Source: Helicobacter pylori (GTDB taxonomy: Bacteria; Campylobacterota; Campylobacteria; Campylobacterales; Helicobacteraceae). Taken from it: a DNA stretch of 64,000 nucleotides. The notes under the pieces were generated by a model. It worked only from the letters and a program-made list of their open reading frames with translations. It did no database searches and was not told where the DNA came from. Shown in pieces: positions 35,511 through 39,208 of this stretch (its first letter is position 1; each line of letters starts with the position of its first letter). The DNA is taken from contig NZ_LT635477.1 in the NCBI RefSeq assembly GCF_900120335.1, positions 1,054,001-1,118,000 on the forward strand, given 5' to 3'. The position numbers and the translations under genes are program-made.

Positions 35511-36617
35511 ATGGATACGCAAAACTTACCCGATCAAATTATCCCTATTTTTATGAGTTTTGATAAAAATTACGTGCTAGGGGCAGGCGTGAGCCTTTAT
35601 TCGTTACTCTCCCATGCGAGCAGGCACACGAGCACGATAGATTTTAGCCCTCTCAATCAAAACAACAAACTTTTAGGCGCTAACATCGTGTATAAAATCC
35701 ATTGTTTGGTTAAAGGGGTAACTTTAGAGCAGCAAAACAAGCTTTTAAAAACCATTGAGCCTTTTAAAAAATTCGCTTCATTAGAGTTTATCAATATCAA
35801 TTCGCTCGATCATTCCATAGAAAGCTATCTCAATGAGTCTTGCTCCAAGCGTTATGGCGGGCTTCTTGTTTTGTGCCGGCTCTTGCTCGCTTCATTATTC
35901 CCTAATTATTCTAAAATCATTTCCATAGATGTGGATACGGTGTTTTTAGGCGATGTTGCAAGCGCTTATTTTGCGCTGGATAACGAACCCACTAAATTGC
36001 TTGGCATGGTGAGAGACACTTTTTCCCACCTTCCTTTTGAAGCTTTTTGTCGTTTTATTGAGCGAACATGCAAGAATTTTAAAATTGATCTTTCGCGCTT
36101 TAGCCAAAACGAATTAAAACGCATCCATCAAGGCTTTAACATGGGCTTTTTGGTGGCGAATTTGGATTTGTGGCGCGAAAATGGGTTTGAAAAAATCGCT
36201 TTGGAGTTTTTGAAAAATAGAGGGAAAGACCTTTTTTACCCTGAGCAGTGTTTAATCAATATGGTGTTTTGGAAACGCGTTTTAGAATTGCCTATTTATT
36301 ATAATTGCTATTCTGATTCTTTCAAAGAGCACTACCCTAAAAACATCGTCATGCTCCATTTCATCAAATACAAGCCCTGGCGTTCTGTGAGTTCTTTAAA
36401 CGGGCGTTTGATTTGCTATGAAGCTGAAGCGAGTTTTTGGCTCGCCAACCTTTTTTGCACCCCTTTTAAAAACGATTTTTTTAAAGAACGCCTTGAAATG
36501 GCTAAAGACCAACAAATGCAATCTTTTAAAACCCACATAAGATCAAAAACGATTAGGGATTATTTTTATTTTAGGATAAAAAATATTTTGAAGTCCTTTT
36601 GTAAGACTAAACATTAA
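35511..36617 (+). CDS. Glycosyltransferase family 8 (LPS-type)
   Basis: GT8 enzymes transfer glucose or galactose to lipopolysaccharide. The 368-residue protein has the N-terminal IPIFMSFDKNYVLGAGVSLYSLL pattern, the metal-binding DVDTVFLGDV motif (about residue 140), GFNMGFLVANLDLW, and the HFIKYKPW tail motif. Position matches HP1416, annotated as an LPS 1,2-glucosyltransferase-like protein. Its start directly abuts the miaA stop, so they are co-transcribed. It converges on the EcoRI-type methyltransferase with about 10 bp between stops. Confidence 0.88.
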   Translation: MDTQNLPDQIIPIFMSFDKNYVLGAGVSLYSLLSHASRHTSTIDFSPLNQNNKLLGANIVYKIHCLVKGVTLEQQNKLLKTIEPFKKFASLEFININSLDHSIESYLNESCSKRYGGLLVLCRLLLASLFPNYSKIISIDVDTVFLGDVASAYFALDNEPTKLLGMVRDTFSHLPFEAFCRFIERTCKNFKIDLSRFSQNELKRIHQGFNMGFLVANLDLWRENGFEKIALEFLKNRGKDLFYPEQCLINMVFWKRVLELPIYYNCYSDSFKEHYPKNIVMLHFIKYKPWRSVSSLNGRLICYEAEASFWLANLFCTPFKNDFFKERLEMAKDQQMQSFKTHIRSKTIRDYFYFRIKNILKSFCKTKH

Positions 36618-36627
36618 GAATACACCT

Positions 36628-37587
36628 TTAGTAATCTTTTTTATGTCTAATTAAAACTCTAAAATAGGGGCATTTACCATTCACGGACAAATCCTTGCCA
36701 TCATTTCCTTTCCTAAAACCAATAATCTCAAACTGCTCAGGATTAAACTTGTGTAAAAAAGTTATAGGTACTCCCATAGAACCCCTATAGTCCAAAGGTA
36801 TATCTGTGGTTCTATTCACATTAATTCCATCAAAATTATCATACAACTCATACTTATTTTTATTGTATTTTTTTGTGAGTGGCAATATCTCATGCCTTTT
36901 TTTATAATCCAAATTTGTGAGCCATAAGCAATTATTAGGAGAGATTAAGCGATTACCTAAGCTATCAATTTTAGTTTCTGTGCCATAAAGTTCATAATGT
37001 CTTGGAACAATAAAACTTGAAATTCCTCGACCAAGATGCATGCCTAACCATACTTTATTATTTTTAATTAGATTAAAAATATTTTTGTATGTAATTGCAT
37101 TGATGTTTCCAATAATCAAAAACTTCTTGCTGTGTTCGATCAATTGCGTTACAAACTCTCTAAAAAGCGAAAAAGGTGGATTAGTTACTACAATATCTGC
37201 TTCTTTTAGCAATTGAATGCTCTCCTTACTGCGAAAATCACCATCTCCTTTGAAAAAATTCAACTCATTAATGGTTGTTTGCCAATCCTTTTTCCCTTCA
37301 TATTCGCAATAAAATCCTTTTGAGTTTTGGTTGCTAGTGCTAAATATTTTTGATTCCACATAACAAGCAGAAATCAATTTTTTAAGCCCTAGTTCTTGAA
37401 AATGAACAAAAAAGTATTTAAAAAAATTACTTACCCTTGCGTCATCACAATTGCAAAAAACAACCTTATTCTTAAAATGTTGTTTATAGTATTGTAACTC
37501 GTTTTCTATATCTACCAATTGTGTATAAAATTCATCGCTTTTTAGTTTCTTAGCTTTTTGCAATATTTGATTAGTCGCTTTTCTTGA
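36628..37587 (-). CDS. EcoRI-type adenine-N6 methyltransferase (GAATTC, inferred)
   Basis: The protein aligns along its length with M.EcoRI. Identical or near-identical stretches include KSDEFYTQ, DIENELQYY, VSNFFKYF, GDGDFRS, DIVVTNPPFSLF (the NPPF catalytic motif), HYELYGTE, SPNNCLWLTNLD, VPITFLHKFNPEQFE and NGKCPYFR. M.EcoRI methylates the second A of GAATTC, so the same target is likely. I chose the ATG at 37587 (about 319 aa), which gives the M.EcoRI-like start SRKATNQILQKAKK; a frame back to 37602 adds five residues. The gene overlaps the 3' end of the endonuclease gene. The frame is intact. Confidence 0.92.
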   Translation of the reverse strand, partial: SRKATNQILQKAKKLKSDEFYTQLVDIENELQYYKQHFKNKVVFCNCDDARVSNFFKYFFVHFQELGLKKLISACYVESKIFSTSNQNSKGFYCEYEGKKDWQTTINELNFFKGDGDFRSKESIQLLKEADIVVTNPPFSLFREFVTQLIEHSKKFLIIGNINAITYKNIFNLIKNNKVWLGMHLGRGISSFIVPRHYELYGTETKIDSLGNRLISPNNCLWLTNLDYKKRHEILPLTKKYNKNKYELYDNFDGINVNRTTDIPLDYRGSMGVPITFLHKFNPEQFEIIGFRKGNDGKDLSVNGKCPYFRVLIRHKKDY

Positions 37588-38425
37588 CATTGTTTTTACC
37601 AATAATTTGATTAAAAAGTGAACTACCTAAGACTTTAAGAGAAGTTCTAGCTACTTCAAGCATGATTTCAAACATTTTATTTAAATTCCATTTTTGTCCA
37701 TCTCCTTGTGTATAAATAGAAATAGCCTGCAACATAATGATTCTATCTCTATATTGAACGAACTTGTTTTGACATAAATTTTGATTGATGGGCATTCCGT
37801 AATTAGCTGCCGTTAATTTATCCAATCTATTAAGAACTCCAGAATTATACTCAAGAGTTACTACCCTCCCATCAGGTCTTTTTACTGATATGGTTTGAGT
37901 TAAAAAATTAGAACCTTCTAAAAATAAAATGTAAGGGAAATGTAATTCTTTGAGCATAAAATTAGCCATTTCAGCAATATTTTTATACGCTCTTTCTATG
38001 GCATTCCCAGCTTGCATTAAATCTTGATTGCTATATTTACCCACTAATATTCCTTTTTGAATATTTTCTATATCTTTTCCCTGATATTTAGCTTCTGTTA
38101 TTAATATAACTCTCCAATTCCCATCATCATCTTTAACCTCAATGATACCTCCATCAGGTTTTATTTTAGAACTTTAAATAAACAAGGTTCTTCCAAGTTC
38201 ATCATCAAGTCCTTGCAGTACAGAATTAATTTCTTCCTTGGTTATGCTTGCTCTGTGTCTAAATGACAAGCTCTTAAATTCATCTTCAAGTTTTTGCATA
38301 ACAAGTTTAGAGATACTGCTCACACCCATATCGTGCAATCTAGCCTCGTCAGTAAAAATATTCGCAACACCTAAAGACTCTTTATGTTGTTTACTCAATC
38401 TTTGAGATTGATTGTTCTTAGCCAT
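37571..38425 (-). pseudogene. EcoRI endonuclease homologue with one nonsense codon
   Basis: The two parts are in the same frame: 38174-38425 (83 codons) and 37571-38173, separated only by a TAA at 38174-38176. Together they form about 284 residues versus 277 in EcoRI. Matches include SKLVMQKLEDE, LSFRHRASITKEEIN, IKPDGGIIEVKDD, ITEAKYQGKDI, AGNAIERAYKNIAEMANFML, FPYILFLEGSNFLT, RPDGRVVTLEYNSGVLNRLD, LTAANYGMPIN and SIYTQGDG. The EcoRI catalytic residues Asp91, Glu111 and Lys113 correspond to PDGG and TEAK, all after the stop. The enzyme is therefore inactive unless the stop is read through. It looks recent because the downstream frame is otherwise preserved. Confidence 0.92.
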
Positions 38426-38428
38426 TTT

Positions 38429-39208
38429 CTACCTTAAAATCTTCACTTCTTCTTCTAAATGGATGCCGTATTCTTGTAACACTCTGGTTTTGGCGAGTTC
38501 TATCAAATCCAGGGCTTCTTCAAATCCTGCGCCCCCCAAATTCACCAAAAAATTCGCATGCTCTTTAGCAAATCCCACTCTTTTTAGACAATAACCCCTT
38601 AAGCCCACGCCCTCTAAAAGCCTGCCCGCATGATCGTTAGGCGGGTTTTTGAAACAGCTCCCAAAATTAGGCAATTTGGGGTGGCTTTTGCGCATGCTTT
38701 GACACGCTTTTAAAACTTCTTGTCTAAAGCCATGCGTTTTTTTAAACCTCGCCCTTAAGACAACGCCATTGAATTTGCTATTGCGATAACTCAACCCCAA
38801 AGCTTCACTCCCTAGCCATTCATCATTAATACAAGCGCTTTCTAAAACATTTTTGATTTCAAATTCTTTCATGCCGGCATTCATTTTAACTAACGCCCCT
38901 AAAGTGCCAGGCAATTGCCCTAAAAACTCCAAACCCCCTAAATCATGTGCCCTAAAATAATTAAAAATTTTAGACGAGTTGGCCGCCCCCCCTATTTCAA
39001 CGCATCCGCCATGATCGCAAATATAATCGTAGTTTTTGCCTAAAAGGGCGAGATTTTTCGCGCTAGGAGCGATTAAAAGGTTGTTCGCTAAACCGATGAT
39101 CTGGTGTTCTTGAGAAATTTCATCATCGTTTTCTAAAACGCTCACTTTTAAAGGCGCACCGATTTTCACGCTGCTATAACGAGAAAAATCAATGATAGTT
39201 TCTAGCAT
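38429..39208 (-). CDS. murB: UDP-N-acetylenolpyruvoylglucosamine reductase
   Basis: MurB is the FAD-dependent enzyme completing UDP-MurNAc synthesis for peptidoglycan. The 259-residue type II-like protein has the FAD motif LGKNYDYI in place of LGxGSN, LPGTLGALVKMNAGM, LSYRNSKF, and PNFGSCFKNP with the catalytic Ser. Position matches HP1418. It follows fliQ with 2 bp between genes, so a cell-wall gene is in a flagellar operon. Confidence 0.92.
   Translation of the reverse strand: MLETIIDFSRYSSVKIGAPLKVSVLENDDEISQEHQIIGLANNLLIAPSAKNLALLGKNYDYICDHGGCVEIGGAANSSKIFNYFRAHDLGGLEFLGQLPGTLGALVKMNAGMKEFEIKNVLESACINDEWLGSEALGLSYRNSKFNGVVLRARFKKTHGFRQEVLKACQSMRKSHPKLPNFGSCFKNPPNDHAGRLLEGVGLRGYCLKRVGFAKEHANFLVNLGGAGFEEALDLIELAKTRVLQEYGIHLEEEVKILR

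Follow-up and report, generated by a model that had tools for sequence, protein, structure and literature searches.

An EcoRI-type restriction-modification allele of Helicobacter pylori with an interrupted endonuclease gene and an intact methylase gene

The EcoRI restriction-modification (R-M) system of the E. coli plasmid consists of an endonuclease (R; PF02963) followed by a methylase (M; PF13651), the two genes being separated by a short gap. In the RsrI-type arrangement, an EcoRI-like endonuclease is paired with a beta-class methylase. A chromosomal GAATTC methylase has also been described within the H. pylori species complex. The GAATTC sites were 95% methylated in strain P12 (HPP12_1389) and 91% methylated in strain F30, where the counterpart is HPF30_1285 (PMC3983042). 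A second study reported ~98% methylation of these sites in P12 and named the enzyme M.HpyPII (PMC5700931), which is also listed as HpyPORF1389P. Our literature search, which covered few subscription papers, found nothing on HP1417 or on the P12 endonuclease gene.

The window analysed here is a stretch of 64,000 nucleotides (C1:1054001-1118000) from the complete H. pylori genome G000, which has 1,667,712 bases in one complete contig and is 99.99% complete. An earlier note, made from the letters of this stretch, had placed an EcoRI-type gene pair with a broken endonuclease between a GT8 glycosyltransferase gene and murB. The gene borders confirmed this placement, and the positions of the pair and of its stop codon were correct. 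The features are listed below in window coordinates:

35511..36617, + strand: GT8 glycosyltransferase, left border of the slot; the last ~10 codons vary with the slot allele
36628..37590, - strand: EcoRI-type adenine methyltransferase gene (M.HpyPII-like), intact; PF13651, PADLOC MTase_II, 69% identity to M.EcoRI
37571..38173, - strand: remaining endonuclease frame, open to the natural stop, with D91, E111, K113 and the recognition region (AGNAIER); PF02963 E=7.5e-78, gapless alignment to the PDB EcoRI
38174..38176, - strand: premature TAA, endonuclease codon 84; sense codon in four other Helicobacter alleles
38174..38425, - strand: EcoRI-type endonuclease, N-terminal 83 codons through the in-frame TAA; PF02963 E=3.1e-19
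38429..39208, - strand: murB, right border of the slot; 3 nt separate its stop from the endonuclease ATG

The pair shares the R-then-M order of the E. coli plasmid EcoRI system, and both proteins are homologous to their plasmid counterparts over their full lengths (64% identity for the endonuclease and 69% for the methylase). This relationship, which had been proposed in the earlier note, is borne out by the matches to PF02963 and PF13651, and the E-values of these sequence matches exclude chance as its source. Unlike the plasmid system, the G000 system lies in a chromosomal slot behind murB, its endonuclease gene is interrupted, and its two frames overlap. With M.HpyPII and its F30 counterpart the G000 methylase has in common the species complex and the chromosomal location, and a common specificity is expected from homology; the difference is that the partner endonuclease in G000 is broken at codon 84.

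The endonuclease gene is a full-length EcoRI-family gene, forming one frame of 284 codons (37571-38425, - strand) in which the TAA at codon 84 is the single internal stop. No further damage was seen in the frame, as had been claimed, and PF02963 matched both halves. When read through, the protein aligned without gaps to the PDB EcoRI structure (E=3.6e-118), with identical numbering of the catalytic and recognition residues. The stop precedes the first catalytic residue, Asp91, by seven codons, and D91, E111 and K113 are all encoded after it. The claim that the nuclease is cut short ahead of its catalytic residues therefore holds and, because these residues lie after the stop, the locus is by its sequence an inactivated relative rather than a working EcoRI-type R-M system.

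The methylase frame (36628-37602, - strand) is uninterrupted, and the profile search matched it to EcoRI_methylase (PF13651) with an E-value of 1.5e-126, which agrees with the intact methylase described earlier. The TTG at 37602 is merely a mechanical ORF start; the start equivalent to that of EcoRI is the ATG at 37590, which overlaps the end of the endonuclease frame by 20 nt. PADLOC called the gene as MTase_II, and the NPPF motif was found, so that an EcoRI-family adenine methylase does adjoin the endonuclease gene. A search for a convincing promoter in the region found none; it gave eight promoter-like sites, compared with a chance expectation of 12.1. As the only EcoRI-type endonuclease frame in G000 is the broken one, the methylase has no functional partner in the genome. 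Its activity in this strain is likely, and a solitary GAATTC methylase is plausible here because chromosomal GAATTC methylation is already documented in H. pylori.

We scanned 34 Helicobacter genomes for EcoRI-type methylases and endonucleases. A high-identity methylase was present in G000, G018 (96%), G026 (93%), G005 (87%) and G027, where it is split; the endonuclease was found in the same five genomes, with an additional 59% copy in G013. The comparison of the stop codon across strains, which had been proposed as a check, showed that the TAA is private to G000 and that a sense codon occupies this position in each of the other four alleles. Two of the five carriers (G018 and G005) have an undamaged endonuclease gene, while G026 and G027 have in common a 1-bp insertion near codon 165, and the G026 gene has a second lesion, a 1-bp deletion at codon 3. 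The methylase is intact in four of the five, and in G027 both genes are destroyed. Since other lesions break the endonuclease in two more carriers, its loss is recurrent on the sequence record, with at least two losses by different lesions within five alleles. The earlier suggestion was that a single reversion could reactivate the nuclease; an equally conceivable route to repair is recombination with the intact alleles that relatives carry.

Two of these genomes have loci with arrangements of their own. In G027 the EcoRI-type locus (L066:4135-4410 and L067:3846-5001) has its methylase cut near codon 26, and the two halves lie 1.38 Mb apart in contig coordinates with their relative orientation flipped, the pattern that an inversion would leave. 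Next to one breakpoint lies a 3' fragment of a gene for an N6/N4 methylase (PF01555), and two R-M loci may have been joined by the inversion. In G013 (L068:4077-5868) the intact nuclease is of the EcoRI family, as in G000, but it is paired with a PF01555 methylase, which is unrelated to the EcoRI_methylase family of the window, and the locus is RsrI-like.

The age of the lesion and that of the system were assessed from codon divergence. The endonuclease gave dN/dS values of 0.035-0.17 in every pair, broken copies included, and the methylase gave 0.07-0.11 against its relatives. The G000 endonuclease departs from the state common to all four relatives at ten silent codons and three replacements, plus the stop. 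Because dN/dS is low in both genes, even for the broken endonuclease copies, the data fit a recent inactivation in G000. Synonymous divergence between G000 and G005 was 0.60 for the endonuclease and 0.50 for the methylase, against 0.72-0.97 for murB, fliI and GT8; judged by these values, the system has long been present in the genus and is not a new arrival, and has perhaps been exchanged between lineages. The view that the pair was probably acquired can therefore be kept in part. The R-M DNA is AT-rich (30.7% G+C against 38.2%) and replaces other alleles, but a recent lone insertion does not agree with the presence of the system at the same junctions in five Helicobacter genomes. A search for a donor among genome and viral contigs found none, only distant methylase homologues of at most 71% identity from many phyla.

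We consider it highly probable that the locus is an H. pylori chromosomal EcoRI-type (GAATTC) R-M allele in which a recent nonsense mutation has removed the nuclease, the methylase being kept as a functionally solitary enzyme and the pair being exchanged through its slot. The anatomy, the stop, the integrity of the methylase, the other slot alleles and the endonuclease lesions in relatives are observations, and from them we infer the enzyme activities in this strain, the exchange route and the recency. The endonuclease may be translated from murB mRNA, as the end of murB supplies an AAGG shortly before its start (the junction reads AAGG TAG AAA ATG). The mutation would end the protein at 83 residues, and with no nuclease made there would be neither restriction nor post-segregational killing. 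The downstream methylase would be kept and most likely methylates the ~176 genomic GAATTC sites. The pair belongs to a group of at least three gene sets that can take one another's place in the slot, and strains probably exchange it through natural transformation followed by homologous recombination in the flanks. The enzyme pair, its specificity and the loss of an endonuclease with retention of its methylase are all of known kinds, and the locus is most likely ordinary for H. pylori, being a recently inactivated allele of a known R-M system. It adds a clean case of such loss and retention, in a species that takes up DNA naturally and has a methylome that differs from strain to strain.

The methylase gene lies behind murB and the endonuclease gene and overlaps the latter, so the stop may lower its expression at the level of transcription or translation. 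Another reading is that the cassette is dying, with the methylase silent through polarity or for want of its own promoter and both genes due to be replaced by another slot allele. The 20-nt overlap, the lack of a methylase promoter that stands out and the destruction of both genes in G027 all agree with it; we nevertheless regard it as unlikely, given that four of the five carriers retain an intact methylase under low dN/dS and that the same motif is nearly completely methylated in P12 and F30.

It could also be argued that the TAA is an artefact of sequencing or assembly and that the strain has a fully active system, given that a single base decides the matter in a gene that is otherwise undamaged and under purifying selection, and that two relatives have an intact endonuclease. 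Substitution errors are rare in such assemblies, and the single-contig, nearly complete genome, together with the different lesions that break the gene in relatives, makes an error very improbable. A further possibility is that a non-cutting function, such as regulation or DNA binding, survives in the N-terminal 83 residues or in a protein that restarts at the GTG of codon 128, both pieces being long open frames. As neither piece joins the catalytic residues with the recognition region, and no such split is conserved among relatives, we give this explanation almost no credence. The nonsense-inactivated allele with a retained methylase is thus preferred.

The frequency of the target site was examined as possible evidence on the G000 copy. 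The window has two GAATTC sites against 19.5 expected under a maximal-order Markov model, and the whole genome has 176, whereas the reversed control CTTAAG occurs 518 times, an approximately 3-fold depletion; whole genomes of H. pylori have a published observed/expected ratio of 0.32 (PMC3849833). The mean density was 99.6 sites per Mb in carriers and 106.2 in non-carriers (12 genomes; Mann-Whitney p=0.68). As the two groups are alike, the depletion reflects clade-wide history and is uninformative on the G000 allele; site avoidance was accordingly rejected as evidence. Separately, GAATTC was ~13- to 18-fold depleted relative to CTTAAG in G002, G005, G006, G007, G011, G012 and G013, as compared with ~3-fold in the H. 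pylori cluster, and these strongly depleted genomes are mostly among those where our search found no EcoRI-type nuclease.

The interval between GT8 and murB was compared across the H. pylori cluster, defined as the 14 genomes whose GT8 and murB genes are close to those of the window (G000 and G016-G028). All 14 contain murB. The EcoRI-type system occupies the interval in four (G000, G018, G026 and G027, where the inversion divides it) and is found at the same junctions in one more distant Helicobacter. Seven genomes (G016, G017, G019, G021, G023, G025 and G028) carry a two-frame CptA/EptA-like phosphoethanolamine transferase there, and the other three (G020, G022 and G024) a C5 (m5C) methylase with a ThaI-type nuclease. 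By its sequence the interval is therefore a multi-allelic slot in the H. pylori complex. The EcoRI allele swaps out the last ~10 GT8 codons at one end and is separated from the murB stop by 3 nt at the other. No close copy of the transferase was found elsewhere in G000, the best match being 35% identical. Our literature search, which covered few subscription papers, found no description of this three-way slot.

A broader proposal, which we put forward tentatively and hold to be possible rather than probable, is that GT8-murB is a dedicated exchange slot whose occupants, entire R-M systems or a phase-variable phosphoethanolamine transferase, displace each other. A strain that acquires a DNA-methylation system would then lose an envelope-modifying enzyme, and EcoRI alleles with a dead nuclease would be maintained there for the sake of their methylase. 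If this is a true swap site, a strain would have either GAATTC methylation or the envelope phosphoethanolamine transferase, but not both. We regard the exchange in the slot as more informative than the endonuclease inactivation itself.

A dinucleotide tract at a frame break is the usual mark of phase variation. The transferase alleles (e.g. L150:4239-5904) have a GA tract of 7-13 units at this position, and the CptA-like transferase is therefore likely to be phase-variable. In the ThaI-type allele (L155:3190-4720, also in G020 and G024) the nuclease (PF15514) overlaps the C5 methylase by 20 nt, and both genes are co-directional with murB.
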